Virus record (IMG/VR): IMGVR_UViG_3300044837_000008 | Location: 1 to 34,388 of that record | Strand: one strand, 5' to 3' | From: a virus | Length of the DNA stretch: 34,388 nt | Shown here: positions 8,238-34,297 of the stretch, piece by piece | Layout: every line of letters starts with the position of its first letter | Position numbering within the stretch: the first letter of the stretch is position 1 | Made by a program: the position numbers and the translations under genes | Notes under the pieces: generated by a model | Told to the model about the DNA's origin: nothing | The model's database searches: none | Seen by the model: only the letters and a program-made list of their open reading frames with translations

Positions 8238-8683
8238 TGATTAAAACAGTCCTGGATAAAGAAGCAGCACAAAAGGTAGTAGACATGGGAAGAGTCTTTC
8301 ATGCGGAGTCACACTTCCGTGATCAACCTTATGATGGTGATCGTATCTGGGCACTGCTGGAAGCTACGATTAAATTCCCCGAGAAATACTTCATTGCTTT
8401 TGATGAGAATCTGCATGGGTTCATTATCATGAATATCCAGCAGCATTACTTCTCAGGGCACAAGTGGGCATCTGATTTTTGTTTATATGTTTTACCCGAG
8501 CATCGCAATGGATTGTTAGCTCCTAAGCTCATCAAAGCTGCCGAGGTTTGGTCCAAAGAAAATGGTGCCAGAGAAATGACTATCTTTCATAACACTGGTA
8601 TCAATACTGGAAAAGCAACATCTTTCTTTAATAAATTTGGTTACGAGACCAAAGGTTATATTTTCACCAAGGAGCTTAAATAA
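8237..8683 (+). CDS. GNAT-family N-acetyltransferase (148 aa)
   Basis: The protein has the order of a GNAT fold: a helical N-terminus, strand EKYFIAFDENLHGFIIMN (beta 2-3), strand DFCLYVLPEHRNG with the acetyl-CoA loop HRNGLLA (motif A), the helix LAPKLIKAAEVWSKENG, and a final TSFFNKFGYE typical of motif B. It would move an acetyl group from acetyl-CoA to an unknown amine. It is linked to both neighbours by TAATG overlaps and lies between tail and ejection genes; small acetyltransferases are often found there in podoviruses. The substrate is not known; a virion or host protein is possible. Confidence 0.85.
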   Translation: MIKTVLDKEAAQKVVDMGRVFHAESHFRDQPYDGDRIWALLEATIKFPEKYFIAFDENLHGFIIMNIQQHYFSGHKWASDFCLYVLPEHRNGLLAPKLIKAAEVWSKENGAREMTIFHNTGINTGKATSFFNKFGYETKGYIFTKELK

Positions 8684-16640: not shown

Positions 16641-16778
16641 TTCATTATCGTATTCCATATCTTTATACCATACCATTCTAATCAATCCAAGATCAAGGCA
16701 TAGAATAAAGCCAAGTTCTTCGTCTTCAGTGTATTCCAATCCGAAACATAATCCCTGGATCCAGCCGAAAGTTAGCAT
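16638..16778 (-). CDS. Small hypothetical protein (46 aa), coupled to ribonucleotide reductase
   Basis: ATG 16778 overlaps the reductase stop codon (TAATG on the minus strand), and the frame runs 46 codons to TAA at 16640-16638, touching the shared terminator. The sequence begins MLTFGWIQGLCFGLEYTEDE and ends acidic (MEYDNE). It has alternating hydrophobic and aromatic residues but no clear transmembrane helix. Short Gly/aromatic proteins of this kind are common in phage early operons. Translational coupling and correct fit up to the terminator argue that it is real. Function unknown. Confidence 0.65.
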   Translation of the reverse strand: MLTFGWIQGLCFGLEYTEDEELGFILCLDLGLIRMVWYKDMEYDNE

Positions 16779-18670
16779 TACAAGATTTCACAAGAGTTTC
16801 CGCTACACGCGAATTCCTGCGCTCCGTTAGTTGTATCTTCATCTGTCTCATACTTGTCGAAGTCTACCCACGGTACGGCTGGGAAGGCATCTCGAAGTTT
16901 ATTGTATTCTGATTCAGATAGATCCTGGTACGGCGCTTGCTGATAAACATGCTCGCTATGCGGAAGGAAAGATACTCCACCAATATCATCAAGATGTTTG
17001 TATACCCATGCACCAACTTCCAACCATTCGTGTTCCTTTACGTAGACTGTGATAGAAGGATTATGCTCACACCAATGGCGCTTGAAAGTAAGATAATGAT
17101 CCAACTGATCCAACGCGCCGCGATCTGATCTATGTACGGAGCCTTTGGGAGCAGCCACGGGGAAAGAAAACACCAAATTACTATTGTTGGTAACATCCAC
17201 TTCATATGGAACTCCTTTCTCCTGCATGAATACTGCGAGAGGATCTTTTACGTCAGCCCGAACAGTACGTATATAAAAGGGATTATGACGCGGGTGAATG
17301 CCACTTGCAGAATCCACAAGCTGACTAACGGTCCCGCTAGGCTTAACAGTAGTAATAGCAGCAGAAGGATTAATGCCCAACCTCCCTGCCCATTCTTCGT
17401 TTGCCAGAATGCTTTCATTCTTGAGAGCATCTAAAAGTTCACCCAGATTAGAATCCCCCAAGTTAGAGTCCCCACTACCATTAAGAAGAGGGCTATCCAT
17501 GATACCAGTAAGAGACACTCCAAGTAGTCGCTCTTCTTCAGCATTTACCCTCCACTGTTTTCGGATGTATCGGAAGTCCGTGAGGGTGCTCTGGAATGTA
17601 CCAAGTACACTAGCAATTCTAACCTTTCGGAGTAGTGTTTCTCTATCGTCCGTAGCTCGAACAACAACTTCTGTAAGGTTGCAAAATCCGAAGGGTCGAA
17701 GGATGATTTCGCCGCAGGGATTGGTGCCAAATTCGTGATCGATATCCCGGCGTCCCGAAGATTCCGCTTGCTTCTTTGCAGACACGCGATTAAAGACGCC
17801 GCGTTCTCCCGACTTACTTTCGTAGAGGGCATGCCATTCCTTCATGAAGATGCCAATATCTGGCTTTTCTGTATAAGCCACGCTGTTATTTGCAAGAGCC
17901 CGTTGTCCACTCTGCTCCCACCAAGCCCCATTCTTTGCGTTACGCATGCGCTCATCCGTAAGGTTACTGAGGCTAATGAGAGCACTGCGCCGGACACCAC
18001 CAACAACGACAACCTGAGCAATCTTGCAGACAAGATCATGACATTCCAGTGAGTTTAGTTTCCTACCTGCGGCCTGTTTAAAGAGTCCGGTGGTAAATCG
18101 GAAAAGGTCGGCCAGAGGATCAGGTCCCGAAGCGCGTCCACCAAACGTTCGGAGTCGTGCACCGGCAGGACGAATTCGAGATAGATCCCATCGTGGCGTC
18201 TTACCGCTATATAGTAAGGCGATGAGCTCTCGAAGGGCGCTTGCCCATCCCTGCTTACTGTCAGAGACAACAATTGTACTTTCGCTGTCATAGAATTTCT
18301 CTGGGACCTCCGGTAGTTTATTAATGTATTGTCGTTCAACCGAGAACCCAACACCTGTGCCGTTCATCAGCACATACATTACCTCATCGAAACACTTCTG
18401 ATCCTGAATGGGAATGTAACTACAGTTGTATCCAGCAATGTTATCCCGAGCCAACGCCTCACCGGCGGTCATTAGGGCTCGCATGGACGGCATCACTTCC
18501 ATCTTGTGGATAGCTTCGTACACATCTTTGTATGGGAACAGATCACCATACTTGTCCCGCCAGAAATTACAATAACGTTCTACTGTTTCACTCCAATGTT
18601 CCCGACGCTTCTTCGCGGGAATCCATCGTGCGTACCGCGACTTATAAACATAATGCTGCAAATCATCCAT
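16778..18670 (-). CDS. nrdJ: Class II (adenosylcobalamin-dependent) ribonucleotide reductase (630 aa)
   Basis: The protein converts ribonucleotides to deoxyribonucleotides for phage DNA synthesis. Visible hallmarks are NCSYIPI with Cys83 (redox-active pair), GTNPCGEI with Cys319 as the thiyl radical site and Glu321 nearby, FCNLTEV with Cys330 as the partner of Cys83, and a C-terminal swinging-arm pair Cys622/Cys627 (CSGNSCEI). The organisation and length resemble monomeric B12-dependent triphosphate reductases such as the Lactobacillus enzyme. No R2-type small subunit or activase is encoded nearby, which fits class II. It needs adenosylcobalamin from the host, but not oxygen. Ribosome binding site GGAG lies about 9 bases upstream of ATG 18670. 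It is the penultimate gene of the leftward operon. Confidence 0.92.
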   Translation of the reverse strand: MDDLQHYVYKSRYARWIPAKKRREHWSETVERYCNFWRDKYGDLFPYKDVYEAIHKMEVMPSMRALMTAGEALARDNIAGYNCSYIPIQDQKCFDEVMYVLMNGTGVGFSVERQYINKLPEVPEKFYDSESTIVVSDSKQGWASALRELIALLYSGKTPRWDLSRIRPAGARLRTFGGRASGPDPLADLFRFTTGLFKQAAGRKLNSLECHDLVCKIAQVVVVGGVRRSALISLSNLTDERMRNAKNGAWWEQSGQRALANNSVAYTEKPDIGIFMKEWHALYESKSGERGVFNRVSAKKQAESSGRRDIDHEFGTNPCGEIILRPFGFCNLTEVVVRATDDRETLLRKVRIASVLGTFQSTLTDFRYIRKQWRVNAEEERLLGVSLTGIMDSPLLNGSGDSNLGDSNLGELLDALKNESILANEEWAGRLGINPSAAITTVKPSGTVSQLVDSASGIHPRHNPFYIRTVRADVKDPLAVFMQEKGVPYEVDVTNNSNLVFSFPVAAPKGSVHRSDRGALDQLDHYLTFKRHWCEHNPSITVYVKEHEWLEVGAWVYKHLDDIGGVSFLPHSEHVYQQAPYQDLSESEYNKLRDAFPAVPWVDFDKYETDEDTTNGAQEFACSGNSCEIL

Positions 18671-19322: not shown

Positions 19323-19611
19323 TGCTTTCTTCGTACTCAATATGTAGTTGTAGTTTTTGAGCTACCAGATGTTCAATCTTGGCACCATAAGAATCTTCCC
19401 ATCCCTTGAGCATCAACATGGCATCACACGTAGAAACCAATTGGATATCTTCAAGGATACAAGGAAGCCATGAGGCATTTGGATCAGGATTGTGTTCAGC
19501 TGGACTGATAACCTCATGACCACGATTACGGAGGTCTGTGGTAGCATACTTAAATGCAGGGAAGTTTAGATCATCATAGCCCGTCATGGGACCAGATACA
19601 TACCATTTCAT
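19315..19611 (-). CDS. DUF4406 protein, nucleoside deoxyribosyltransferase-like (98 aa)
   Basis: The N-terminus MKWYVSGPMTGYDDLNFPAF, followed by RNRGHEVISPAE, is the conserved signature of DUF4406, a Rossmann-like family related to nucleoside 2-deoxyribosyltransferases. The conserved mid-section LEDIQLVSTCDAMLML with a carboxylate-rich region and WEDSYGAKIEH matches the family's second half (equivalent to DxxxVxxxD and GxGxE). It may exchange or process bases in nucleosides or nucleotides; the catalytic activity is not proven for most phage members. Its start overlaps the upstream MazZ-like gene by 4 bases (ATGA), which supports a joint nucleotide-metabolism role. Confidence 0.85.
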   Translation of the reverse strand: MKWYVSGPMTGYDDLNFPAFKYATTDLRNRGHEVISPAEHNPDPNASWLPCILEDIQLVSTCDAMLMLKGWEDSYGAKIEHLVAQKLQLHIEYEESND

Positions 19612-19943
19612 TTCGGTGCCTTATATAGATCATCAAGATCAGGTCGAGTCTTCATCATGTTACTAAGAAACATCCAGCAACAGCCAACGTGATCGATATG
19701 AGGAAGACCAGACTCTGTGTCAACATACTCACCGCGAAGTATTGCGAAAGTATGCCGGAGAAGAGCGGCAGTAAGGCGGCTATAGCTAATGCCACCGCGC
19801 CAATTGTGGGATGCATATTTCTGTGCTCCAAATTGAAGTACCGCAGCTAAGCCCTCAAGGGCCACAGGATCAAGTAGATCAAGAGGCAACTTATCCTGAT
19901 CATCCTTACGTCCAGCAAGTAGTTCTTGTTCTTTAATTCCCAT
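19608..19943 (-). CDS. MazZ-like dATP/dGTP pyrophosphohydrolase (DUF5664 family, 111 aa)
   Basis: I set the start at ATG 19943 (11-base overlap with the upstream gene); a longer frame to 20003 exists but would overlap by 71 bases and add non-conserved residues. The core runs KLPLDLLDPVALEGLA, AQKYASHNWRGG, RHTFAILRGEYVDTESGLPHIDH. This is the pattern of the dATP/dGTP diphosphohydrolase family related to MazG/MazZ all-helical NTP pyrophosphatases; Glu and Asp residues in helices and the HIDH motif bind metal. It would hydrolyse purine dNTPs to monophosphate and pyrophosphate, shaping the dNTP pool. Neighbours are DUF4406, RNR and other DNA-metabolism genes. Confidence 0.8.
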   Translation of the reverse strand: MGIKEQELLAGRKDDQDKLPLDLLDPVALEGLAAVLQFGAQKYASHNWRGGISYSRLTAALLRHTFAILRGEYVDTESGLPHIDHVGCCWMFLSNMMKTRPDLDDLYKAPK

Positions 19944-20142
19944 ATACCGTCCCAGGGTCCACAGATTTATCGGTGGTAACTTCAAGTCGTGCCAGTCGAT
20001 CATGTAGGTCTACGATTGCTTCGGCCAGGATGTGAAACGTACTTGTGTTGGCATGCTGCCATTCATTCAGGGTACCAGACATGATTGCCTTCTCGGAACC
20101 CCGAATCAACATCCTCAATTCACTGTAATTAATTTCGTTCAT
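19933..20142 (-). CDS. Hypothetical small protein (69 aa)
   Basis: ATG 20142 overlaps the upstream stop TGA in ATGA form. The product is mostly helical (YSELRMLIRGSEKAIMSG, then AEAIVDLHDRLARLE) and resembles small helical phage proteins of unknown function, with a coiled-coil-like end. It overlaps the MazZ-like start by 11 bases. No catalytic motif is visible. Confidence 0.65.
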   Translation of the reverse strand: MNEINYSELRMLIRGSEKAIMSGTLNEWQHANTSTFHILAEAIVDLHDRLARLEVTTDKSVDPGTVYGN

Positions 20143-20309
20143 CCCCAGTTCCCCGTAATAAGATCGTTCTTAACAAACTCCAGTACACCAACCGTCTCCG
20201 CGACGGTCATGCCGTTGAACTTGTCATTACTCAGTACTTCCCAGATATCATCTGTCATCACATTGACAAGGGGATTACCTCGGCGCAGTGCCCAAATATT
20301 ATTTTCCAT
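20139..20309 (-). CDS. Small hypothetical protein (56 aa)
   Basis: ATG 20309 lies inside the end of the phosphoesterase gene (11-base overlap), and the frame ends with TGA 20141-20139, overlapping the next ATG (ATGA). The sequence begins MENNIWALRRGNPLVNVM and ends VLEFVKNDLITGNWG. It fills the otherwise empty 156 bases between two genes and is linked at both ends by overlaps, so I consider it a genuine gene. Function unknown. Confidence 0.7.
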   Translation of the reverse strand: MENNIWALRRGNPLVNVMTDDIWEVLSNDKFNGMTVAETVGVLEFVKNDLITGNWG

Positions 20310-21072
20310 ACTTGCGCTCCAAGTAATTCAACGAGACAAACATCTCATCAAACTCGCCATCATCAACTTCATTGAGGACCACCACTCCGCGCCAATGCTT
20401 GTTTCCCTGCGGACCCATGTAATCTTCATCGTGCTCATAACAACTGCCTGCAATAATAGAAGCGATACGACGACCATCAGCAGTATAACCATATGCTACC
20501 TGCCGTCCTTGTTGGTGCCCCGCTATGCAGGACATATGCTTCTTAGTAAGAGTGAGTTGAGCGGAGCTAATAGGACGCCCGGCAACACCGCTGACAAAAT
20601 AATGACTATAAGCGATGCCATCAATAACAGCAACGTCAAGAAACGGGTGTACTTTCCAGCCATAGCCCTCGTAATCCAAGTCATCGACACTAATAGTCCC
20701 ATCGAGTTTAGGATCACCACTAACCACGCGATCAATTCTATTCTCATGATTCCCCAATGTCAATACCATTTCAGGCTTGTACTGCTTCTTACCATTCCTA
20801 CGCTGTCGATCGTTGTATGCACTGATTGGTTTTAGTAACCGACCCATAGCCTCATGCGATGCTTCTACATCTGCTTTGTATCGGCGACCTTCGAAGCTTT
20901 TCTTCCCAATATCATACGAACTGAGGCTCGGCATATCCGCAAAGTCCCCGATATTAACAAGTACGTCAGGCTGGTGATCAACAATATAATTGCCAATGCG
21001 TTCAAGATAATCAAAGTTATGCCCAGGTTTAATCTGACAATCAGGTAGAATGAAGTGTCGCTTTGTTGTCAT
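20299..21072 (-). CDS. Calcineurin-like metallophosphoesterase (257 aa)
   Basis: The motifs of a two-metal phosphoesterase are in order: PDCQ with Asp11 and a His at 18, IGDFAD at 41-46 (GDxxD), GNHEN at 107-111 (GNHE), SHYF near His157, and AGHQQG at 184-189 in place of the usual GHxH. Such enzymes split phosphomono- or diesters; phage versions are often annotated as DNA-metabolism phosphatases, with unknown substrate. The first His is replaced by Gln (DxQ instead of DxH), so metal coordination may differ; this variant occurs in other phage members as far as I recall. TAATG couples it to the upstream gene. Confidence 0.85.
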   Translation of the reverse strand: MTTKRHFILPDCQIKPGHNFDYLERIGNYIVDHQPDVLVNIGDFADMPSLSSYDIGKKSFEGRRYKADVEASHEAMGRLLKPISAYNDRQRRNGKKQYKPEMVLTLGNHENRIDRVVSGDPKLDGTISVDDLDYEGYGWKVHPFLDVAVIDGIAYSHYFVSGVAGRPISSAQLTLTKKHMSCIAGHQQGRQVAYGYTADGRRIASIIAGSCYEHDEDYMGPQGNKHWRGVVVLNEVDDGEFDEMFVSLNYLERKYGK

Positions 21073-23240: not shown

Positions 23241-23966
23241 TCAACGATCTGTTCGATCTACTTTTTTCATATTTAACATGTCCATACCGATCTTGACTTC
23301 ACATGCTAGGGGCACAACCCAGTTGATACCAAACGTCCTATTCAGGTTAGTCACCAGATCGTCGAAGACCTGGTAGAAAAGATTTGTGACAGGTTGTACA
23401 TACTGTGATTCGCAATCGACGACTATCGAATCGTGAACCGTGGATATCAGTAGTGCCGGAATACCCGAGGTCTTCAATCTCCGCGCGAAACTGATCCGAG
23501 CCACCATCATCACATCCGCACCAGTCCCCTGCACTGGGTAGTTCGTTAGAATTGTCCACGGTATTTTTATGTTCCCTCGTTGATCTCGTCCCATGGAAAT
23601 GTTCCATTGACGACCTGTCGGCCCAATGATTGGCTGACCGGAGACCACGAGATCTTTCCACTCATTGTGTTTGGCATTGAGTTGATGATACTTGGCGTAG
23701 AACTTTTCTCCAATGTCATCCCAGAACTGGGGAGAGGTAGAGACATGCATAAATTCCGGATCATTTGCAAAAGCATATCCACTTCCTCTAAAGATGGTTC
23801 GGAAAAGATAGATCTTTGCAATGAGTCGAGAAGGGAGGTTAAACGCGACTTGATTAAGGCTGTGCGTATCTGCTCCCCCAACGATCTCGTTGATGCCAAC
23901 AGTGTCTCCGGACAACTCAACGGCTGTTCTCCACTCAAGCTGACTTGCGTCGCAGACGACAAGCAA
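23241..23966 (-). CDS. DNA polymerase I C-terminal half (palm/fingers, 241 aa)
   Basis: The fragment contains all three polymerase motifs: motif A (VVCDASQLEWR, catalytic Asp6), motif B (Arg47 to Lys51 to Phe55, then RGSGYAFANDP), NYPVQGTGAD at 142-151, and motif C (TVHDSIVV, His178-Asp179). It begins only five residues before the motif A Asp, so it lacks exonuclease and thumb domains, which are on the 24407-25546 protein. The only usable start is TTG 23966, directly after the TAA of the preceding small gene in the same frame, with GGGGGT upstream. The two halves probably assemble into one DNA polymerase, like other split polymerases. An alternative is low-level readthrough from the small gene. 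Confidence 0.88.
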   Translation of the reverse strand: MLVVCDASQLEWRTAVELSGDTVGINEIVGGADTHSLNQVAFNLPSRLIAKIYLFRTIFRGSGYAFANDPEFMHVSTSPQFWDDIGEKFYAKYHQLNAKHNEWKDLVVSGQPIIGPTGRQWNISMGRDQRGNIKIPWTILTNYPVQGTGADVMMVARISFARRLKTSGIPALLISTVHDSIVVDCESQYVQPVTNLFYQVFDDLVTNLNRTFGINWVVPLACEVKIGMDMLNMKKVDRTDR

Positions 23967-24259: not shown

Positions 24260-24414
24260 TCTTCATCCCCATAAATATCCTCTTCGGATTCATCTCCAAT
24301 ACCATCCCAACCTTCCCAATTATCTACTCCATTGGCATAAAGACGTTCGAGAATTTTGGCATCTTCTAGCAACTGATTATATTCCTTACGAGTAATAGTA
24401 ACGGTATCAGTCAT
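24256..24414 (-). CDS. Small acidic protein (52 aa) between polymerase halves
   Basis: ATG 24414 starts inside the end of the polymerase N-half (8-base overlap). The sequence begins MTDTVTITRKEYNQLLEDAK and has GVDNWEGWDGIGDESEE, a Trp-Asn-rich, strongly acidic end. Proteins with the segment VDNWEGY/W occur as small genes in other phage genomes, so I think it is a genuine gene rather than residue of an intron. Function unknown. Confidence 0.7.
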   Translation of the reverse strand: MTDTVTITRKEYNQLLEDAKILERLYANGVDNWEGWDGIGDESEEDIYGDEE

Positions 24415-25546
24415 TATATCGACTCACAAAAAGATCGTTAGCGGCGGAATCCATATTCTGTCCATTAGGTTTGGAGGAACTGAGTCGTCCCGTGGTTACA
24501 GTTACCTGATTGTACTGAGGATGTAGTACCCCAGGTTCCCAGTTCTGTTCCCGTCGAGTTTTGATTAGTCCATCGTATGTCTTGGATAGCAACGTTTCCA
24601 GACGAGTCTGCTGCTGAATCAACGAAACGATGTGGCGAGTTGCCTTGTTCGCTTTCAGCTTTAGCAGAGTATCGGCATTGGTTGCATAGAAACCAGCCTT
24701 CTTTAGTTCACTTCCCCGAAGAGGTTCAACCAGTCTTGGTAATTCGTGTTGAACGATTACATTCTTATACTTAGGTTGACCTGCTCTCATCCCCGTCTTG
24801 AAGAACCCATCATGCTCTTTAGTTTGTTCTTCAATTGTCCCACCGTAAAGGAAGGCAGACAACTGATCGCCACTACCGAAATTAATAGGGACGTTAGGAT
24901 AAACCTTAGATAGTTCTTCGGTGATGCATTGTATTTTAATTTTAATTTCGCTACTACGTTCCTCACACAACTCCTCGTTGAACCTAAGTCCGTTCCACTC
25001 CATCTCCTCCAGAATCAGAAGGTCCGCACACATCAACCTCACCAGACGCTTCTGCGAGGCGGATAAGGAATCCATCTGCGCTTCGTACAACTTCAGCGTT
25101 AATTCGGCATCCTGTATCGCATACTCCGATAATTCTTCCCAAGGAATGTCCTCCGTCTGGATACCATTCTTCCAATACTTCTCTGCAATTATATTGATCT
25201 TTGAGCCAAGTCCGTAATTTTGACATGACTCGTTCAAGCTGGGATATTTCCATTGTTGGTTACTCAGAATGAATTCAGCTAACTGGCAGTCCCACCAGGT
25301 TTTGTGGGTGGTGTCGATTCCCTGTCTTCGGAGGACGTGAATGTCATATTTAGCATTAAAGCCAACGAGAACTCCAGCTCCCTCAATTGAGTCTCGAAGG
25401 CTCGCAATGCTACTCTCATTGTATGTACTTGCGCCACTGCTGCGTTGATCTGCCCAAGAGTAGCATACTGCTTTGAATCGTCCATCGAAAGGTGCCCCTG
25501 TATTCCATGTGTTGTTTTCTGTATCGAGCGCCAGAGGCTCACTCAT
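24407..25546 (-). CDS. DNA polymerase I N-terminal half (3'-5' exonuclease and thumb, 379 aa)
   Basis: The first ~190 residues are a DnaQ-like proofreading domain: LALDTEN with Asp8/Glu10 (Exo I), VGFNAKYDIHV (Exo II), and YAIQDAELTLKL (Exo III). The thumb and beginning of the polymerase domain follow, ending with TGRLSSSKPNGQNM and NDLFVSRYND, which in intact family A enzymes lie immediately before motif A. The protein stops at TGA 24409-24407, so the catalytic palm is missing and is encoded 440 bases downstream (23241-23966). This is a split rather than a decayed gene: both halves keep all motifs and reading frames. No 5' nuclease domain is present; that is a separate gene. Confidence 0.9.
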   Translation of the reverse strand: MSEPLALDTENNTWNTGAPFDGRFKAVCYSWADQRSSGASTYNESSIASLRDSIEGAGVLVGFNAKYDIHVLRRQGIDTTHKTWWDCQLAEFILSNQQWKYPSLNESCQNYGLGSKINIIAEKYWKNGIQTEDIPWEELSEYAIQDAELTLKLYEAQMDSLSASQKRLVRLMCADLLILEEMEWNGLRFNEELCEERSSEIKIKIQCITEELSKVYPNVPINFGSGDQLSAFLYGGTIEEQTKEHDGFFKTGMRAGQPKYKNVIVQHELPRLVEPLRGSELKKAGFYATNADTLLKLKANKATRHIVSLIQQQTRLETLLSKTYDGLIKTRREQNWEPGVLHPQYNQVTVTTGRLSSSKPNGQNMDSAANDLFVSRYND

Positions 25547-25724: not shown

Positions 25725-25872
25725 TTGATTTATCCATAGATTCCAAAACCTTTGTCATGGCATTTACCATTTCGACAGTTCCCCAACCAAACCCTGTGCG
25801 AGCATATTGTTCTCTCGCAATCTCAGTCAGATGGTGCCACAACTCTTTAGGTATTGTAACGGTTCCGCTCAT
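25714..25872 (-). CDS. Small hypothetical helical protein (52 aa)
   Basis: ATG 25872 overlaps the helicase stop (ATGA), and the frame ends in TAA 25716-25714 just inside the next gene (11-base overlap). The sequence begins MSGTVTIPKELWHHLTEIAR and continues GFGWGTVEMVNAMTKVLE, two helices that may be amphipathic. It links helicase to the following gene without a gap, so coupling supports it. Function unknown. Confidence 0.7.
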   Translation of the reverse strand: MSGTVTIPKELWHHLTEIAREQYARTGFGWGTVEMVNAMTKVLESMDKSNDL

Positions 25873-27095
25873 AGATCTCTAAACCTACCAATGGTGGGCT
25901 CAATCAGACATTCCCATCGATCGTGACGAAGATTAGGATCAGAATCTTCATCTCCCCATAATTTATTTTTTGACAAGTGTAAGTACCTTAAATTATCATA
26001 ACCAGCTTCGTTCAACTTTCCGAGACCAAGAATCCAATCTGCCTCAGCTTGTTTGCTTGTCTTTGCGTTAGCCACGTGAGCCATAGTAAGCCATCTTTGT
26101 CCTTCCGCTGTACCATCGGCTTGGCAAACACCAATGACGGGACAATATTCTTTAGCCAGTTCTCGTGCCCAAATGTAAATGCTTCCAAGTCGAAGGTCTT
26201 CCCGATCATTGTCGAAGCCTTTGATTTTGTCAATCTGATCGAACACAATAATAGAGGGTTGCTGTTTTGCACAGATTTTCTCAACTTGTTTCCAGTGAAT
26301 ACTGGCAGAGTCCTTTAGAAGAAAGTTACCTTTGGTAAGGTCATGAAACTTCTTCTGGTTTCCTTCAATATCCCTCTGTAGGTTTACCTGATCAAGTCCT
26401 AGACAACTCTGGTACATCCGAAGTACCACTTCTTCACCGACCTGCTCATTGTTGAACCAGAGGCCCGGAGCATCGGCTTGTTGAAGCATGTACGATATTT
26501 CACTGGCGAGGAATGTAGTCTTACCAGTTTCAGGTCGAGCGAATACAAAACCAAAGTTACCCTTGCGTAGACTACCTAGACGCTTGTTTAATGAATCCAG
26601 ACGCCAACGAAGCCCAGGAGTGCCACGAGTCCGCTGCATAAGCTCAGCCAGATTAGTAGTGACAAAATCGCTAAGATCGTCATCACCAGAACTTTCCTCA
26701 GGTTGTTTAAGTTCATCGAGCTTGGTGGTTAATTGTTGATAGTCCCCCCTCCCTTCCGAAACCTCATACGCCTGAATAGATACCTCACGGAGCAGGCGAG
26801 TTCGTCGGAGAGAATCAATGAGACTACGAGTGCTAAAATCACTAGCTTCAGTAGATCGTAGAGCATCAAATACTCCTTGATAGAAATCTACTTTACTACG
26901 GTTAGTACTGAAATACAGATTGGATAAAGAGTCTACAGAGAGATCTTCTGGATTATCTACAGAAGTGTAGTAAGCATCGACAGTTCTTATGATAGGTTGG
27001 ACTTCCTTGCTGAAGTCACTTATGTCGATACTATCTCTTACAGAGGTGTAGTTCTCTTTATTACAGAGATATTTAACTACACTAAGTTCTATCAA
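25869..27095 (-). CDS. Replicative DNA helicase, DnaB-like SF4 (408 aa)
   Basis: The RecA-like core begins after residue ~165 with GLRWRLDSLNKRLGSLRKGN, then Walker A ARPETGKTT at 186-194 (Lys192, Thr193) and Walker B IIVFDQIDKI at 282-291 (Asp286). A later QADGTAEGQRW and HVANAKTSKQAEADWILG look like DnaB motifs H3/H4 (sensor Gln and Arg-finger region). The N-terminal ~150 residues are a helical domain as in DnaB/T7 gp4 linkers. It unwinds DNA 5' to 3' at the fork. Unlike T7 gp4, it lacks a primase domain; primase is the separate 28986-29738 gene. TTG 27095 follows AAGGAT by five bases. It is the first gene after promoters P2/P3. Confidence 0.9.
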   Translation of the reverse strand: MIELSVVKYLCNKENYTSVRDSIDISDFSKEVQPIIRTVDAYYTSVDNPEDLSVDSLSNLYFSTNRSKVDFYQGVFDALRSTEASDFSTRSLIDSLRRTRLLREVSIQAYEVSEGRGDYQQLTTKLDELKQPEESSGDDDLSDFVTTNLAELMQRTRGTPGLRWRLDSLNKRLGSLRKGNFGFVFARPETGKTTFLASEISYMLQQADAPGLWFNNEQVGEEVVLRMYQSCLGLDQVNLQRDIEGNQKKFHDLTKGNFLLKDSASIHWKQVEKICAKQQPSIIVFDQIDKIKGFDNDREDLRLGSIYIWARELAKEYCPVIGVCQADGTAEGQRWLTMAHVANAKTSKQAEADWILGLGKLNEAGYDNLRYLHLSKNKLWGDEDSDPNLRHDRWECLIEPTIGRFRDL

Positions 27096-27458: not shown

Positions 27459-27792
27459 CTGGATTCACCGCCCTTGCTCCTTTGTTTCGTTCGAGGGCTT
27501 TTGCACAGTGATTCTCCTGAAAGATTGCAAGGAACGAACACATACGACAACCCCAACCCCAGTATGGTTGGACCGGTTTACCCTGTTCATAGGCCATAGC
27601 CTTGCTAGAACGGCTTGAGATCGTCTCGTCAGGGTCCCCTAGGCATAGGGTATTAACCAAGCAGTCCAACGTCACCAGGACGTTTTTAACGTACCCGTCA
27701 TCCGGGGAGTATTTGTACAACCCGAGGGGTGCCTTGACCATCCGTGCAACTGCGATGGCGATATTACTGAAATATAGTTTTACACTATTCAA
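27451..27792 (-). CDS. Hypothetical phage protein of an ill-defined small family (113 aa)
   Basis: The start is TTG 27792, which overlaps the protease stop (TTGA). The sequence shows LVTLDCLVNTLCLGDPDETISSR and YWGWGCRMCSFLA followed by ENHCAKALERN. I recall similar phage proteins in which a motif with GGDxxETLSSR is followed by W and a terminal HC motif; they have no experimentally known role. The Cys residues could bind metal, but only in part. It resembles genes often seen in lysis or accessory regions of phages. Confidence 0.65.
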   Translation of the reverse strand: MNSVKLYFSNIAIAVARMVKAPLGLYKYSPDDGYVKNVLVTLDCLVNTLCLGDPDETISSRSSKAMAYEQGKPVQPYWGWGCRMCSFLAIFQENHCAKALERNKGARAVNPDA

Positions 27793-28496
27793 TTAAGTTT
27801 CTCCAGTTCAGTAATTGGGGTCAGGAATGCCAGATCAAATACTTGTCCATTTACTTCCTTTGCCATCAGCGTTTCAGCTACTCCCATGACGCACCCCGTG
27901 GCTGCATCGATAGCCGGACCACCGCTATTCCCAGGCATAAGGGCACCATCCAGTTGAATGAAGTGGCCGAAAGTGCTCCTAACAGCATCATCCAAATTCC
28001 GATCTGGATTAGAGACTTTACCGAAGCTAATCGTAGAAGTGAACGCAAGGGGACCACCAATCAGGTTAAGTGACTCACCATAATACGGTTTAAACGTACA
28101 TACAGACAGTCCAGTGGGCCACTTGATAGCTGCCTGTGTCTGGGTATCAGTTGTGAGTGTCATCAGGTCTGGGCCTTGTAGAAGCTCACTATCTCCCCGC
28201 TTCTGTACATGGAAGATTCGAACCGTTTCATCTCCTTCAAACAGAACAGCTACCGGTTGAACTACATCCTGTGCTTCCACACAGTGTGCTGCTGTTACAA
28301 TCGTATGGGTTCCTTTCAAAATCCAACCACTACAGTAATCCCCACCAAGGGTCTGAATAGCTACCACGTTACCCAGCTGTTGTTCTAGGGTGGGTGGAGT
28401 AACAACGTTAGGACTTTCTGCGTAGGCATGTACACCCAGTGCTGCAATGATTGCAAATGCCAGCGCCCCGAGCGCTGACCCGATCTTAGTAAACAT
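27789..28496 (-). CDS. Secreted trypsin-like serine protease (235 aa)
   Basis: The catalytic triad is complete: His71 in VTAAHCVE, Asp110 in QGPDLMTL and Ser191 in MPGNSGGPAI. The N-terminus has a basic start, a hydrophobic core (LGALAFAIIAALG) and HAYA-E, so a Sec signal peptide with cleavage after residue ~26 is likely. Three or four Cys residues (55, 72, 133, 202) could form disulfides typical of the periplasm. It would cleave peptide bonds in the periplasm or outside the cell. The family is unusual for a phage. It sits in the leftward (early) block between primase-linked small genes and the helicase, not among lysis genes. Function could be superinfection exclusion or host envelope protein cleavage; both are inference. 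Confidence 0.88.
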   Translation of the reverse strand: MFTKIGSALGALAFAIIAALGVHAYAESPNVVTPPTLEQQLGNVVAIQTLGGDYCSGWILKGTHTIVTAAHCVEAQDVVQPVAVLFEGDETVRIFHVQKRGDSELLQGPDLMTLTTDTQTQAAIKWPTGLSVCTFKPYYGESLNLIGGPLAFTSTISFGKVSNPDRNLDDAVRSTFGHFIQLDGALMPGNSGGPAIDAATGCVMGVAETLMAKEVNGQVFDLAFLTPITELEKLN

Positions 28497-28699: not shown

Positions 28700-28989
28700 T
28701 ACTTGTCCCCATACTTTTCTTTGAGGCGTTTAAATTGACGGCGTTCCATTTCAGCGTTCCTAATGGCAAATTCTGCTTCTCGCTTTTCACGGGCTTCCTC
28801 TTCTTTATCGGTTTCGAGCCGTTCCTCTGCTAATTCTACAACGATAGAGTCATCATAACCCAGGGAAATATCAATACTTCGTTTAACTCCGGACTTCTGA
28901 AAAGATTGTAACTTGGTGATTACCTTGTCTAGATCTCCTTCAAGGTCATATCGAATGTTCATGACCAGTACTGAAATCATCTTTTTCAT
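28699..28989 (-). CDS. Hypothetical protein with charged coiled-coil C-terminus (96 aa)
   Basis: The first half is alpha/beta (MISVLVMNIRYDLEGDLDK then SIDISLGYDDSIVVEL) and the second half is a long highly charged helix (EERLETDKEEEAREKRE) suggesting a coiled coil. The start overlaps the primase stop by 4 bases (ATGA). No family recognised. Confidence 0.65.
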   Translation of the reverse strand: MKKMISVLVMNIRYDLEGDLDKVITKLQSFQKSGVKRSIDISLGYDDSIVVELAEERLETDKEEEAREKREAEFAIRNAEMERRQFKRLKEKYGDK

Positions 28990-29738
28990 GATAACTTAGC
29001 CTCAATATAATCCATCGGATATTCTTTTGGATCGTCTTTACTGTACAGCACACGAGTATGGACGCCCATCAGTCCTAGTTGACGGGCGATCTTTTGACCT
29101 TCAGTGAACTTATCTGAATCCAGCCAGATAAATATCTTTTTGTACATCTTCGCCAACCGAGCTAGCTTTTTTTCAGGCATCGCTGCACTAAAGCAAGGTA
29201 TTCCGTCTGACACTCCTGAGTTGGCAACAACGATTCCGCTGATGCAGTCTTCAACAAGGCATGCCGTGTCTGTGCTTTTGCGACTATAATACGTTGCAAT
29301 AACGTCCGTTGGTGAGCCTCCAGTAAAGAATCGCTTGTCGTGAGTTGTGCCTTCCCTGAAGTTACGGGCTTGCCACAAGACCACATCGTCACCTTCGCCA
29401 TAAAACTGGTATATGAGTTGTTCACGTTGTTTACTCCATCCTACATCACGAAAGATAAGGTCCTGTACAGACAATCCGTACTTCTGGACCCACTCTACCA
29501 CCCTGCTTGGGTATCCTCCAAGGTCAGTATCATCAGGAGGGGGTCGTACAGCATTGTCCGATACTGGCTTTCTTGTAACCATTGATCGTATGCTCTCTGA
29601 TACCCCTCCCGGTTCCCAGTAGGAGCAGCCGAAACAAAATCCCGAACCACCCTCGTACCTCGCGAGATTGTCTTTTGAGCCACAGCGCGGACAGGACTCA
29701 TGTCGTTGAAAACGTGCGGAGTTCTCCCATCCATACAT
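28986..29738 (-). CDS. DNA primase, T7 gp4-like primase half (250 aa)
   Basis: The N-terminal zinc-binding domain has CPRC (Cys16, Cys19) and CFGC (Cys35, Cys38), as in T7 gp4 primase. The TOPRIM domain has Glu163 in CLVEDCISG and Asp207/Asp209 in IFIWLDSDKF. It makes short RNA primers on the lagging strand. The helicase half is a separate gene (25869-27095), as opposed to the T7 fused primase-helicase. A short helicase-linker is missing, so recruitment to helicase must use other contacts. ATG 29738 overlaps the upstream stop (ATG/TAA); four bases couple it to the next gene. Confidence 0.88.
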   Translation of the reverse strand: MYGWENSARFQRHESCPRCGSKDNLARYEGGSGFCFGCSYWEPGGVSESIRSMVTRKPVSDNAVRPPPDDTDLGGYPSRVVEWVQKYGLSVQDLIFRDVGWSKQREQLIYQFYGEGDDVVLWQARNFREGTTHDKRFFTGGSPTDVIATYYSRKSTDTACLVEDCISGIVVANSGVSDGIPCFSAAMPEKKLARLAKMYKKIFIWLDSDKFTEGQKIARQLGLMGVHTRVLYSKDDPKEYPMDYIEAKLS

Positions 29739-30043
29739 TATTTCCTCCGCTTCTGGCCGCCACCATTCTTGGGAACGATGATATCAACTACCATTACATC
29801 AGGAATGTCAACCATATACTGGTTAACATCTTCACTGTAGCCTGTGGGAACTGTATTGCGCTTGATACTCTGCACATTGGTCGCCGCTGCGCGGCTGGCC
29901 TTGTTAATAACATCTTGTGTTGTTTGTCGCAACTTCTGTACCTCCGGACACTTGCAGTTAGGATTCTCACAGGACTTATTTGACATCCACGTCAGTCGAT
30001 CCATCGTGACGTGACATTCTTTACAGGTCAGTTTCACAGTCAT
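29738..30043 (-). CDS. Zinc-ribbon-like small protein (101 aa)
   Basis: I place the start at ATG 30043, 23 bases inside the preceding gene, because the longer open frame to 30217 would overlap an evident Zn-ribbon gene by almost 200 bases. The N-terminus MTVKLTCKECHVTMDRLTW plus CENPNCKCPE gives a Cys pattern C-x2-C ... C-x4-C-x-C, likely a zinc knuckle. A helical middle and a C-terminal half rich in Val/Asp (YMVDIPDVMVVDIIV) follow. Function unknown; it couples to primase by overlap and may bind DNA or RNA. Confidence 0.7.
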   Translation of the reverse strand: MTVKLTCKECHVTMDRLTWMSNKSCENPNCKCPEVQKLRQTTQDVINKASRAAATNVQSIKRNTVPTGYSEDVNQYMVDIPDVMVVDIIVPKNGGGQKRRK

Positions 30044-30248
30044 TGCAGTCCGTTCCGAGATATTGTTGATAGTCTTCTCCTTCATCCCCATCGAATTCGG
30101 AGGGAAAGTCTCCCTCTTCAATGTCTGGAATGTCGTCGGCGACGGTCTTAAAGCAACCATTACATAAATCAACAAAGCCACCGCTACTAGAATATTTACG
30201 GACGGACTCACGATCATTCAACCTTTTGTCACAAGCTAAGCAACGCAT
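30021..30248 (-). CDS. Zinc-ribbon small phage protein (75 aa)
   Basis: MRCLACDKRLNDRES is followed by GGFVDLCNGCFKT, giving C-x2-C ... C-x2-C, a classical rubredoxin/zinc-ribbon knuckle pair. I recognise this as a common small phage protein found in early operons (MRCxACNxxLxDRE ... DLCxxC). The C-terminal half is very acidic (DIPDIEEGDFPSEFDGDEG). It probably binds a host or phage protein or nucleic acid. The activity is unknown. Confidence 0.78.
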   Translation of the reverse strand: MRCLACDKRLNDRESVRKYSSSGGFVDLCNGCFKTVADDIPDIEEGDFPSEFDGDEGEDYQQYLGTDCNDCETDL

Positions 30249-30265: not shown

Positions 30266-30778
30266 TTACCGAGCCCGCCGGCGGGCCGGAGCGGGGGGTA
30301 CAGCAGCAGCACGTTGCAGCGCAGCTTGATCACGTTCCCGCAAAATACGTTGAGCCATTTCTTGCATCTGCCGTTCCTGGAGAACCATTCGAGGTGGAGC
30401 TGGTTGCTCATCCAAGATAGCAAAGAAGTCAGAATCATAGGTGGACTTCTTAACTTCCGCTTTCTTCACGGAGGAAAGTTTGACTCCTTCGGGTAAGACT
30501 TCGAGAATACAATCATCCTCAACCAGCTTATCCGGGAAGTTTCTTGCGTGGTCATTGAAGTACAAGATACTACCAGACAACGGACTCTTAACCGGACGGA
30601 GCCCATCGTTTGTTTCGATCACCAGCAGAGGACCACCCTTCTTCACATTCCGGGTATCCGCTTGCATCACATGGAAGCATTCACCCATACGATCTTCAAT
30701 GAATCGCCGAGCGAAGCCAATCTTGACTCGACCATCTTCGGCCTTGTCAATCCACAGATCACCAATAAATTCTTTCAT
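30266..30778 (-). CDS. GcvH-like (lipoyl/biotinyl-type) domain protein lacking the attachment lysine (170 aa)
   Basis: Residues 6-100 align with glycine cleavage H protein: GDLWIDKAEDGRVKIGFARR (strand pair and IG), MGECFHVMQAD, VKKGGPLLVIET, KSPLSGSILYFND and PDKLVEDDCILEVLPEG correspond to its conserved order (G-x-x-L ... ES-x-K ... P-x-S-G ... N-x-x-L-x-x-x-P). At the lipoyl-lysine position (eight residues before Pro66) stands Asp58, so lipoylation at the canonical site is not expected. The C-terminal ~60 residues are a charged helix (QERQMQEMAQRILRERDQA) and a Pro/Ala/Arg tail. It follows the ATP-grasp/GATase/amidoligase cluster and could be a protein carrier, scaffold or substrate. It may also be a simple structural domain. 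Confidence 0.65.
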   Translation of the reverse strand: MKEFIGDLWIDKAEDGRVKIGFARRFIEDRMGECFHVMQADTRNVKKGGPLLVIETNDGLRPVKSPLSGSILYFNDHARNFPDKLVEDDCILEVLPEGVKLSSVKKAEVKKSTYDSDFFAILDEQPAPPRMVLQERQMQEMAQRILRERDQAALQRAAAVPPAPARRRAR

Positions 30779-30921
30779 TCTATTTCCTTTGCTTGATAAG
30801 CAAGCGTATATTCCATAGGAAAATATTCATAATCTTCCATATACTGTAAAGCATGTTCTTGTAATCGAAATACAGCCAGGACTTCTCTTGTCTCTGTATT
30901 AAGTACTAGCCATCGTCCCAT
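30775..30921 (-). CDS. Small hypothetical protein (48 aa)
   Basis: ATG 30921 lies inside the 3' end of the ATP-grasp gene (23-base overlap), and TGA 30777-30775 overlaps the next ATG by 4 bases. The sequence begins MGRWLVLNTETREVLAVF and ends YTLAYQAKEIE, with beta strands and a helix. It occupies the space between ATP-grasp and H-like genes and is coupled to the latter; it could be a small partner. Function unknown. Confidence 0.7.
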   Translation of the reverse strand: MGRWLVLNTETREVLAVFRLQEHALQYMEDYEYFPMEYTLAYQAKEIE

Positions 30922-31687
30922 TACCAAGCCCCTTTACAAAAGCCTCTGCGTATTTATCCACCGTCGATCCCTCAAGACCGGGGGCAGTGTTGACTTCCAA
31001 ACAATACACTTCGTTCCGTTTTGCATTATAAATGAGGTCAACCGCACCAAAGTCAAGCCCGAGTTCACCCACCACTCGTTGAGCCATTTGTCGCAACCCT
31101 TCAGGCTCGGTGATGTTCTCACGACAATAGACCCATCCGGTTTGATGATTACGTACCTGAAAGTTTGTTGCAAAATCTTCCGGTAATTCTTTGCGCTTTC
31201 TCTTTTCTTGTACATCGATCACTTCTCCAAACGCGACGTGGACTCGGAACTCTTGTTGCTTCTTCACATATTTAACATAAAGTGGGGCCACTGGCATAGT
31301 AGTCGTACCACTAACCAACTCGATCCCATCGCCACTATGGCCAGACAGCTTATGACGAACCACAACATCAACTCTCTCATCATTAAGCCACGTCTCCGCT
31401 CTCTCTCTATCGGTTGTAAACTCTGGAATTCGGATACCCTCTTTGCCCTCCAAGGCACGGAAAGTACTAAGCTTGTTACTAGCTGTTGCTACCGCAGCGA
31501 ACGAATTGCTAACGCTGCTAAAAGGACCAGTCCCCACAGGGGGACGTCCATTCCCCCAATTGATAAGTCGAGTCCAAGGACGGACCACAAACGTTGGATT
31601 AGGACGGTCATTGAAGAGTCGTCTTACCCGGTAGGACAATGACAGCCCGAGCTTCTCCGTTAACAACCGCGCTGACTGACTCCCCAT
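30899..31687 (-). CDS. ATP-grasp ligase, RimK-like (262 aa)
   Basis: I choose ATG 31687, which overlaps the GATase gene by 80 bases; the region around it (MGSQSARLLTEKLG ... INWG) has the pattern of phage ATP-grasp starts. Core motifs include INWGNGRPPV, ATP-binding VVVRHKLSGHSGDGIELV with a glycine-rich loop, YVKYVKKQQEFRVHVAFG, and the metal-binding end GAVDLIYN ... VYCLEVNTAPGLEGS, in which Asp, Glu and Asn ligate Mg-ATP. RimK-type enzymes join a carboxylate to an amine via acyl phosphate. Substrate unknown. In context with a glutamine-synthetase-fold ligase and an NTN-fold amidotransferase it suggests formation of amide bonds on a small molecule, peptide or protein. Confidence 0.87.
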   Translation of the reverse strand: MGSQSARLLTEKLGLSLSYRVRRLFNDRPNPTFVVRPWTRLINWGNGRPPVGTGPFSSVSNSFAAVATASNKLSTFRALEGKEGIRIPEFTTDRERAETWLNDERVDVVVRHKLSGHSGDGIELVSGTTTMPVAPLYVKYVKKQQEFRVHVAFGEVIDVQEKRKRKELPEDFATNFQVRNHQTGWVYCRENITEPEGLRQMAQRVVGELGLDFGAVDLIYNAKRNEVYCLEVNTAPGLEGSTVDKYAEAFVKGLGNGTMAST

Positions 31688-33236
31688 CTTGTACGGTAGC
31701 AAGACGACGGGACGCCGCAACGTGCCTCGCGTTTTCAATTGCGACTTTTGTGTTGCGGTGACGGGCTTTGAAGATTTCACGAACACTCTCCGTGGTGATT
31801 TTGGTTGCTACACATGAAGGGCAAAACAACTCAATACCATTCATGGGCTTTTCTTTCTTTGGATCTACAATACCTACGTGCTTCACGCCGCAGAAAGGCT
31901 TTTCCCATGCTTCCACAACACGATTACAGTCAGCACACTGGCAATGGTTCTTTGCAAAATCCCAATACATAACGGGGATTTCCTTACTGTGTACCTTGGT
32001 GTAGGTCGCAAGGCGGGTATCGCGTACATGGATGGTCCAACCCCCCATCGTCTTTGTGGTGTACTGGACCTTCGCGACACATACCTTATCGAGCCATTCG
32101 GCCATGTTCTGAGGCTGTACTTCCATTGGAAGAAAGCCTTGTACATCAAGACGTTCCAACTCGGGGGTAAAGATGAGTCCTTGATATCGAAATCGATTGT
32201 TCAACATCCGGGTAGTGGACATTACCTTGACCAATACCGTATCGTTACGATTGAAGTTCTCATTGTAACTCTGAATACCCGTAGCTCGTGCTTCTGCAAT
32301 CTCCTCGTCAGAAGGCGTCTTGGTGATGACGCCTGCGGCGGTTAGCGCACAACTGTTCAAATGCGCCGTCGAACTCGTCTCCTTTCTCTGAGCGGCCTTT
32401 GTGAGTGCGTCCTTTAGGGTGTCCGTCTGGGCCGATCCCCCGCCCTTCGGAAAAACTACACCATCCTCATCAACAGAGGTAGCCAGAACCCGCCTCGCGC
32501 GGGTCTTCCATGCTTCGTATTCCCAGTCGTCGTTTTTTTGGCTCGTGAGGTCCACCTTTTCCTTTGTAAAGGTACCTTCGGGAGTAAACACAAATACTTC
32601 ACCCGGTTCCACCACGATATTCTCTGTAACCTTGATGTTCTTACGAGCGGACAACATACCACCAATCCATGCTTCACTGGATAGGATATAGAAATCATCC
32701 GTTACCAGAATGTTCATCGGACGTTCTTCATTCCGTGAAACATACAGACGATCTGCCTCGGTGTCATACCACACCAGCGCAAATGCCCCATCAATCTTGG
32801 GCAATACTTCGGCATAGCTGGACTTAGCCAATGCGTGAGCGATTGCATGGCTATCCACATCCGTCTTTACATCCGACAACTTATCTTCATTGCGAATGGT
32901 GCCGTTGTGGACAAGAATGATCTTGTCTTCCACGAACGGATGGGCATTGTCGGTATTGACCGTGCCACGAGTTGCCGCACGATTGTGGCCAATCACGAAC
33001 TTACTACGTTGAATCATCTGATTACGGAAATCAGACCATTCCTTAGTACGGAACAGGTTCAGAGGGTGGGAACCATGTTTGATGATTCGTACATCACCAT
33101 TACGGAACCGAGTGAATACCCCTGTGGAATCTTTACCCCGCAGAGTATCCACAAGCAGCATGTCTTCGTAAAGATCAGCCGCTTGGAAGTTAAACCCAGC
33201 CGGGCGTCGAGCGATAAGGCCTACAATTCCGCACAT
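31608..33236 (-). CDS. Class II glutamine amidotransferase with C-terminal zinc ribbon (542 aa)
   Basis: After Met removal the catalytic Cys2 (MCGIVGL) is N-terminal. GHNRAATRG, HPFVEDKIILVHNGTI and DVDSHAIAHAL are the GlmS/PurF/asparagine-synthetase signatures (Arg, Asn, Gly oxyanion, Asp for Gln binding), spanning residues 1-210. It would release ammonia from glutamine. Residues ~230-420 are a long variable domain with no synthase motifs that I recognise. Residues 430-475 have a zinc ribbon: Cys434/Cys437 in QCADC and Cys472/Cys475 in FCPSC. The ending is GEARAVIVLPGKTTLQ. No sugar isomerase or PRTase domain follows, so ammonia or glutamyl groups must pass to a neighbour ligase. Start ATG 33236 lies one base after the upstream stop. 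Confidence 0.9.
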   Translation of the reverse strand: MCGIVGLIARRPAGFNFQAADLYEDMLLVDTLRGKDSTGVFTRFRNGDVRIIKHGSHPLNLFRTKEWSDFRNQMIQRSKFVIGHNRAATRGTVNTDNAHPFVEDKIILVHNGTIRNEDKLSDVKTDVDSHAIAHALAKSSYAEVLPKIDGAFALVWYDTEADRLYVSRNEERPMNILVTDDFYILSSEAWIGGMLSARKNIKVTENIVVEPGEVFVFTPEGTFTKEKVDLTSQKNDDWEYEAWKTRARRVLATSVDEDGVVFPKGGGSAQTDTLKDALTKAAQRKETSSTAHLNSCALTAAGVITKTPSDEEIAEARATGIQSYNENFNRNDTVLVKVMSTTRMLNNRFRYQGLIFTPELERLDVQGFLPMEVQPQNMAEWLDKVCVAKVQYTTKTMGGWTIHVRDTRLATYTKVHSKEIPVMYWDFAKNHCQCADCNRVVEAWEKPFCGVKHVGIVDPKKEKPMNGIELFCPSCVATKITTESVREIFKARHRNTKVAIENARHVAASRRLATVQDGESVSAVVNGEARAVIVLPGKTTLQ

Positions 33237-33237
33237 A

Positions 33238-34131
33238 TTATACTGCTCCCAAATAAAGAGACTTCTTAGAAACTTGCTTAAGCAGAGTTATGTTAGTTGC
33301 CGGGTTGAGGAATGCCTGCTTAACAACATTCACCGACCGTTCGAGATCACGATACGATTCATACTTCAACTGCATGGCATCATCCGAGCCAAAGATGGTG
33401 ATTAGCAATTGTTGATAGTCCGTCATCCCATGCAATTCCAGAAGAAGGCGACGAATATCAGTGGTCGAATTACGATTACAATAGTCAATCAACTTGGTCC
33501 ACAAACGAATCCAGATGGATACCTTACGATGATCGAACGTACCGTGCATATGCCGAGCTTCAATCGTACCCAACTCACGCAAGGGCAGGATGTTCAGACC
33601 TGTGTACTTGGACCATGTTTCCACAACACTACCAAAGGGGTTACTGCACATCCCAGTAATAAGGTTAGTATCCATCAACGGCACGCAGTAAATATTCTTG
33701 ATACGACCACGTCCAGTGAACTTATAGAACAATGGTTCGAACAAGGTGTACATCAATACAATATCCACCACCTTTGCTGCTTCCAGCTTCTGTACATTGA
33801 AGTGCACATGGATGGACGTACGTGGACTGAAGCAACATCCTTTGGAGATGCTATCCACCAACAGATCCTTCAATGCATGGGGAGCCCACCGCGCCTGAAT
33901 GGGATGAGTAATCCATTCCACTCCATTGTTACGCAGCGAACCATCGCCCTTCATTACCCACACAGGTTGGGCACGACGTTCTACTTCATGGTTCTCGACT
34001 TCAACTTCAATACCAACTTCGATATCACTGTCGACAGTTTCAACCAGACCAGTCATACCCTTATAGTACTGGCTTGCATCCACCGTATTGACTGGAGACA
34101 TGCCCCAGATTTCAATGATTGATTTAGCCAT
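33238..34131 (-). CDS. Glutamine-synthetase-fold amidoligase (297 aa)
   Basis: Residues ~36-110 contain DSDIEVGIEVEVEN (metal-binding Glu pair, as in the G-x-E-x-E motif of amidoligases), VMKGDGSLRNNGVEW (loop with Asp-Gly-Ser-Leu), TSIHVHFNVQ (His-x-His metal site), and LGTIEARHMHGT (Glu-x-Arg, substrate/ATP residues). This order matches the COOH-NH2 ligase (amidoligase enzyme) family, with a fold shared with glutamine synthetase. It forms an amide between a carboxylate and an amine using ATP. The gene is followed by GATase and ATP-grasp and preceded by a 57-residue gene with an 8-base overlap. Substrate unknown. Confidence 0.87.
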   Translation of the reverse strand: MAKSIIEIWGMSPVNTVDASQYYKGMTGLVETVDSDIEVGIEVEVENHEVERRAQPVWVMKGDGSLRNNGVEWITHPIQARWAPHALKDLLVDSISKGCCFSPRTSIHVHFNVQKLEAAKVVDIVLMYTLFEPLFYKFTGRGRIKNIYCVPLMDTNLITGMCSNPFGSVVETWSKYTGLNILPLRELGTIEARHMHGTFDHRKVSIWIRLWTKLIDYCNRNSTTDIRRLLLELHGMTDYQQLLITIFGSDDAMQLKYESYRDLERSVNVVKQAFLNPATNITLLKQVSKKSLYLGAV

Positions 34132-34297
34132 CGACCTCTCCGATATCTACATGAATCTTTCCGTCGGCGTAATAAACAGACAGCAGTTTTAGATTACTGT
34201 TACCGGCTGTATCAAACACCACATCCAACGGCAGGAGTGCTCCTCCAGGAAAATGATCCGGAGCAACTAATGCTCCAAGAAGCTCGGCAAGAGTCAT
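34124..34297 (-). CDS. Small hypothetical protein (57 aa)
   Basis: ATG 34297 overlaps the preceding stop (ATGA), and TAA 34126-34124 lies 8 bases inside the amidoligase gene. The sequence begins MTLAELLGALVAPDHFPGG and continues LPLDVVFDTAGNSNLKLL, then VYYADGKIHVDIGEVDG. The predicted fold is a short helix plus beta strands. It may be a small partner of the amidoligase, judged only from coupling. No family recognised. Confidence 0.7.
   Translation of the reverse strand: MTLAELLGALVAPDHFPGGALLPLDVVFDTAGNSNLKLLSVYYADGKIHVDIGEVDG

Follow-up and report, generated by a model that had tools for sequence, protein, structure and literature searches.

A phage amidoligase, glutamine amidotransferase and ATP-grasp cassette with a probable GcvH-fold partner in a 34-kb viral genome fragment

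A set of genes named the peptidoglycan modification cassette has been described in the phages RIO-1, phiEco32, 7-11, PA11, tf, MR299-2, LUZ24, PaP3, and CW02, and was hypothesized to prevent superinfection (PMC5498523), an idea that is also cited for phiEco32 (PMC10580990). It has been proposed as well that the cassette weakens the cell wall ahead of lysis (PMC11945000), and Hardies 2013 and Iyer 2009 are cited in these papers. In the Pseudoalteromonas phage HP1 (PSA-HP1), expression of the cassette genes starts immediately upon infection (PMC7082346), and a Bacillus subtilis phage has been reported with a similar gene set (PMC11945000). Hundreds of sequenced phages, among them laboratory-usable coliphages such as phiEco32, have this cassette, and the passages of the cassette literature that we found contain no enzymatic test and no experimental proof of its product. 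Here we analyzed a cluster of three such genes, encoding an amidoligase, a class II glutamine amidotransferase (GATase), and a RimK-like ATP-grasp ligase, in the record IMGVR_UViG_3300044837_000008. The window analyzed spans this entire IMG/VR record, which is linear and 34,388 bases long.

The window cluster is a further member of this known and widespread phage cassette. A first-pass annotation made from the sequence alone had placed three open reading frames (ORFs) in tandem on the minus strand, which was confirmed, and the enzyme classes that it had assigned were borne out by Pfam, PHROGs, and profiles built from homologues. The novelty that it had implied did not hold, since the cassette is already published in many podoviruses as a putative modifier of peptidoglycan (PMC5498523, PMC11945000, PMC10580990). 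In addition, a fourth gene that the annotation had passed over is conserved with the cluster in the clade of the window. The main features are as follows.

33238-34131, minus strand: Amidoligase_2, a glutamine synthetase (GS)/gamma-glutamyl-ligase-like carboxylate-amine ligase of 297 amino acids (PF12224, phrog_7469)
31608-33236, minus strand: class II GATase, an N-terminal nucleophile (Ntn) hydrolase with Cys2 as the nucleophile, 542 amino acids (PF13522)
31608-31780, minus strand: about 173 nt shared by the 3' end of the GATase gene and the 5' end of the ATP-grasp gene
30899-31780, minus strand: RimK-like ATP-grasp ligase, open from GTG 31786 with the likely start at GTG 31780
30266-30778, minus strand: GcvH-fold protein of 170 amino acids without the lipoyl lysine, with Asp58 at the lipoyl position and an invariant Glu55

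The amidoligase matched PF12224 above its cut-off (E=1.6e-7) and phrog_7469 (E=4e-35), and residues E42, E44, E46, D63, R67, E72, H108, H110, R143, E191, and R193 were invariant across 19 phage homologues; a search of its profile against solved structures gave no match. The GATase matched PF13522 (GATase_6) above the cut-off (E=3.8e-17), its profile matched GlmS (2.3e-12), and Foldseek retrieved the GlmS glutaminase (8.7e-13) and EgtC (2.5e-10). Residues C2, R86, N111, G112, and D128 together with four cysteines were invariant in six sequences. In the profile search, the likeness to GlmS/PurF was confined to about residues 1-244, and the first-pass statement that the usual synthase partner domain is missing is thus upheld, with the likeness stopping near residue 240. 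The structure model of the rest of the protein is of low confidence, and the sole conserved feature there is a zinc-ribbon-like unit of four cysteines (C434/C437/C472/C475) near the C-terminus. The window GATase resembles the glutaminase domains of GlmS and PurF as well as EgtC in its Ntn fold, the Cys nucleophile, and the Arg, Asn-Gly, and Asp motifs, but it has the four-Cys part in place of an isomerase, phosphoribosyl, or synthetase domain. An identity as an asparagine or glucosamine synthase (GlmS/PurF/AsnB) was ruled out, as no synthase domain is fused to it.

The ATP-grasp protein matched phrog_2599, annotated as ribosomal protein S6 glutaminyl transferase, with E=1.9e-68, and fell slightly below the cut-off for PF08443 (RimK, E=5e-4). 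A profile of 14 homologues matched solved RimK S6-glutamate ligases (2.8e-8), followed by ATP-grasp ligases of ribosomally synthesized and post-translationally modified peptides (RiPPs) and of cyanophycin, and K83, R122, K154, D228, E242, and N244 (numbered from 31720) were invariant in these 14 homologues. The RimK alpha-L-glutamate ligases are thus the best solved relatives and share the ATP-grasp fold and the catalytic residues, but the N-terminal part differs and the family score is not reached: against TIGR00768 the protein gave 2.2e-9 and 37.1 bits, where the cut-off is 143.4. A Shine-Dalgarno-like GGAG located 7 nt before GTG 31780 marks this codon as the probable start. In L003-L006, L023, L043, and L046, members of the locus set described below, the ATP-grasp core with its LPYK-type motif starts 94 nt before the GATase stop in the same register. 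Since the overlap is kept in these relatives, translational coupling of the two genes is suggested. Catalytic residues are not lost in the relatives, where the motifs of all three enzymes are invariant; the three genes are intact and, judging from divergence against L005 (nonsynonymous, dN, about 0.28-0.45; synonymous, dS, about 1.3-2.1), under purifying selection.

To follow the cassette across phages, a scan with the ATP-grasp alignment yielded 80 viral loci and 17 loci from a genome collection, and co-occurrence was counted in the 74 non-redundant loci flanked by 4.5 kb or more on either side. Because loci were picked by ATP-grasp similarity, the resulting fractions describe the ATP-grasp family and not phages in general. 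The amidoligase and the GATase were each present in 71 of the 74 loci, a second GS-like ligase, the PF14395 COOH-NH2 ligase, in 59, a protein of about 200 amino acids in 54, a C26 peptidase in 38, a gamma-glutamyl cyclotransferase (GGCT) in 26, and the GcvH-like protein in 11, and the cassette matches lay on the same strand in every locus. Among 50,697 records, ATP-grasp matches were found in 309 and GATase matches in 344. The window order recurs in the Alcaligenes phage QDWS535 and in four IMG/VR contigs, where it is preceded by the C26 peptidase, the PF14395 ligase, and a protein of about 206 amino acids. LUZ24, phiEco32, GP100, RIO-1, CW02, 7-11, Vp_R1, and others contain the same cassette, in most cases with the cyclotransferase, which is of the gamma-glutamylamine type (GGACT). 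The C26 partner of the relatives matched PF07722 (5.8e-16) and gave a weak match, under the cut-off, to gamma-glutamyl-CDP-amidate hydrolase, while PF14395 members show weak similarity to YbdK/GCS2. In L027 (9031-10089, plus strand), a class II GATase is fused to GGACT in one ORF of 352 amino acids (PF13230, 3.7e-6; PF06094, 7.9e-18); the contig that carries it is binned as Desulfuromonadaceae.

Several further observations concern these partner families. An ORF on a contig from a metagenome-assembled genome (MAG; L037, 7194-9056, plus strand) matched the profile of the ATP-grasp ligase as well as that of the COOH-NH2 ligase, and Pfam confirmed only PF14395 (4.5e-81); its ATP-grasp part looks degraded. 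The family of about 200 amino acids (L005, 6954-7580, and homologues) has no Pfam or NCBIfam match and is nearly confined to one place, flanked by the COOH-NH2 ligase and the amidoligase (76 loci; the ligase itself occurs in 80). Other matches in the genome contigs, including L026, L031, and L036, are MAG contigs that are assigned to archaea or candidate phyla and bear the phage-type cassette; these are probably misbinned phage contigs.

The nearest relatives of the window are contigs of 50-56 kb, indicating that the window is a fragment. Its end sits 257 nt upstream of the amidoligase, and the cassette is therefore visible only in part. The nearest relatives L003-L006 have PF14395, the partner of about 200 amino acids, and C26, and L001 has GGCT; none of these four was found in the 34-kb fragment.

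The gene directly after the ATP-grasp ligase encodes a protein with the fold of the glycine cleavage H protein (GcvH). It matched PF01597 above the cut-off (8.1e-5) over about 80 residues, the leading matches of its profile were GcvH structures (5e-4), and residues 1-100 of its AlphaFold model had a predicted confidence (pLDDT) of about 90 or more. All 22 Foldseek matches at E<=0.001 were GcvH or LIAS-H-protein entries, the best at 4e-6. The protein departs from GcvH at the lipoyl-lysine position, where 13 of 15 distinct members have Asp, the others Tyr or Ala, and none Lys; since the lipoyl-accepting lysine is replaced in all of them, a role as a true lipoyl carrier is ruled out. In a 13-member alignment, Glu55 never varies and Asp58 hardly does. 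Single-sequence pattern searches found no close relatives of this protein or of the GATase, and alignments performed better for both.

The GcvH-like gene was seen solely directly after the ATP-grasp gene, save for one locus that starts inside the gene. On the ATP-grasp tree, 17 carriers including the window and six non-carriers fall together as a group of 23, whose support of 83/88 does not reach the starred level, and presence of the gene requires 2 changes, against 16.1 with shuffled labels. The six non-carriers are also without PF14395, the protein of about 200 amino acids, and C26, so that either the four genes were lost jointly or the three-gene core was transferred without them. On either reading, the joint absence ties the GcvH-like protein to the PF14395/200-amino-acid/C26 part of the cassette. 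From its sequence distribution, the GcvH-fold protein is a probable clade-specific partner, and it may serve as a partner or a carrier of the cassette. Within the literature collection searched, no paper combined glycine cleavage, phage genome, and amidoligase, which weakly suggests that the combination is unreported.

As to function, we favor with moderate confidence an early-expressed cytosolic glutamate-type amide pathway, with a cell-wall precursor peptide as the likeliest target. The GS-like amidoligase or amidoligases and the RimK-like ATP-grasp ligase would spend ATP on linking a carboxylate, which is probably a glutamate, with an amine. The GATase would hydrolyze glutamine as the ammonia donor or trim gamma-glutamyl groups, and the C26 peptidase and the cyclotransferase of the relatives would strip such groups. 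Following the published proposals, the precursor peptide would be altered against superinfecting phages or in preparation for lysis. We infer gamma-glutamyl chemistry because the C26 peptidase, the GGACT-type cyclotransferase, the YbdK/GCS2 likeness of PF14395, and the L027 fusion converge on such bonds. An analogy is the metabolism of ergothioneine, putrescine, and butirosin, in which gamma-glutamyl residues act as groups that protect or activate. Of the first-pass interpretation, one linked amide or peptide pathway is supported by the same-strand co-occurrence over 74 loci and by the fusion, and only the novelty, given the published cassette, falls away.

Several points weigh against this pathway reading. 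The peptidoglycan target is a conjecture, the cytosolic location is assumed, and no peptidoglycan enzyme is a constant member of the neighbourhoods that were examined. Enzymes of the RimK type modify mainly proteins or cofactors. The passages of the literature that we found demonstrate no substrate for any cassette enzyme, and the fragment contains neither the second GS-like ligase nor C26 or GGCT, so that the phage of the window may lack them. An argument that Gram-negative-only hosts support an outer-surface target was dropped: the ATP-grasp matches listed by organism come from Gram-negative hosts, but the Bacillus subtilis phage has a similar set.

Alternatively, the ATP-grasp ligase and the amidoligases might tag a ribosomal, polymerase, or virion protein of the host or phage with glutamate or an amine, and the hydrolases would edit this tag. 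The S6-glutamate ligases among the closest solved relatives would suggest such a role, and protein modification has been predicted for phage ATP-grasp ligases of another clade (Burroughs 2015, PMC4431377; a jumbo-phage review, PMC7824862). We consider such tagging unlikely: the RimK match, at 37 bits, is well short of the 143 bits that NCBIfam sets as cut-off, there was no sign of a conserved substrate protein ending in a fixed Glu, and hydrolases of small gamma-glutamyl molecules such as C26 and GGCT suit metabolites or peptides better. Among the small cassette proteins, a non-systematic inspection by eye for a Pup-like tag revealed no conserved C-terminal Glu or Gln. A different acceptor would be the GcvH-fold protein. 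It might be a dedicated carrier or scaffold in the clade of the window, with a cassette ligase loading an amine or amino acid onto the Glu55/Asp58 hairpin, an idea that we regard as very doubtful. That a product is built on this acidic hairpin in place of the lipoyl-lysine hairpin, in analogy to LysW or acyl-carrier protein, is equally doubtful; if true, the lipoyl fold would here work through carboxylates.

The position of the cassette in the replication region, near the primase, helicase, and polymerase, and the weak likeness of the C26 partner to gamma-glutamyl-CDP-amidate hydrolase would suit a gamma-glutamylated soluble molecule, such as one derived from a polyamine or a nucleotide, or a nucleic-acid modification, that aids replication or counters defence. 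However, no DNA-hypermodification family was recognized among the window proteins scanned and no PADLOC defence model matched, and this explanation seems decidedly improbable. That the cassette is itself a defence system was likewise rejected for lack of a PADLOC match. That independent metabolic genes are adjacent by chance might be argued from the gene order, which differs between loci in that the GATase either precedes or follows the ligases, and from members missing in some loci. It is strongly disfavoured by the co-occurrence of the amidoligase and the GATase (each 71/74) with the ATP-grasp gene, always on the same strand, by the overlapping genes, and by the fusion protein, and we rejected it as having almost no chance of being correct.

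The GATase-cyclotransferase fusion points to gamma-glutamyl bonds and, together with the GcvH-fold partner, eases testing of a long-standing prediction; the partner is small and can be tagged, and a covalent adduct on it could be traced by mass.

The surroundings of the cassette include the following features.

34124-34297, minus strand: ORF of 57 amino acids that overlaps the amidoligase start
30021-30248, minus strand: small CxxC-CxxC zinc-ribbon-like protein of 75 amino acids, near the cassette in many relatives
28986-29738, minus strand: primase (Toprim; phrog_47, 1.4e-10), downstream of the cassette

Read 5' to 3' on the minus strand, the order is the 57-amino-acid ORF, Amidoligase_2, the GATase, the ATP-grasp ligase, the GcvH-fold protein, the zinc-ribbon-like protein, and then the genes of replication, for a primase, a helicase, and a DNA polymerase split in two pieces. 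Like its counterparts in other phages, the cassette thus lies within the replication region, and the layout is the same in L001, L003-L006, L007, and L009-L010. In 70 of 73 loci, the gene for the protein of about 200 amino acids (U206) abuts the amidoligase at the position of the 57-amino-acid ORF, and tblastn found no match between this ORF and U206. The zinc-ribbon-like protein gave tblastn matches of 35-65% in five relatives and profile matches in 34 loci, and we are unsure whether it is a cassette member.

A trypsin-like serine protease with a signal-peptide-like N-terminus (27789-28496, minus strand; Trypsin_2, 2.6e-14) is encoded between the primase and the helicase; its gene was found in L004-L006, with no match in L001 or L003. 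The family A DNA polymerase consists of two separate ORFs (23241-23966 and 24407-25546, minus strand), and the primase and the helicase (25869-27095) are also separate ORFs, as in QDWS535. Genes for a ribonucleotide reductase (16778-18670), a nucleotide pyrophosphohydrolase-like protein (19608-20003), and a metallo-phosphoesterase (20299-21072), all on the minus strand, are transcribed in the same direction as the cassette. No PHROGs match was obtained for a protein of 1673 amino acids (11150-16171, plus strand) or for 8683-10137, 10140-11147, and 4084-5340.

The nearest named phage found is Alcaligenes phage vB_Af_QDWS535 (OK172329), which contains the full cassette in the same order, a GcvH-like ORF after the ATP-grasp gene that is unannotated in its record, and similarly split replication genes. 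Protein identity is, however, 28-50%, and the QDWS535 GcvH-like protein has Tyr at the lipoyl position where that of the window has Asp. With the published peptidoglycan modification cassette, the window shares Amidoligase_2, the class II GATase, and the RimK-like ATP-grasp ligase on one strand beside the primase and helicase. The second GS-like ligase, the protein of about 200 amino acids, C26, and GGCT of that cassette are not seen in the window fragment, a contig that breaks off upstream of the amidoligase, and the window differs in having an extra GcvH-fold gene directly after the ATP-grasp gene and overlapping GATase and ATP-grasp genes.

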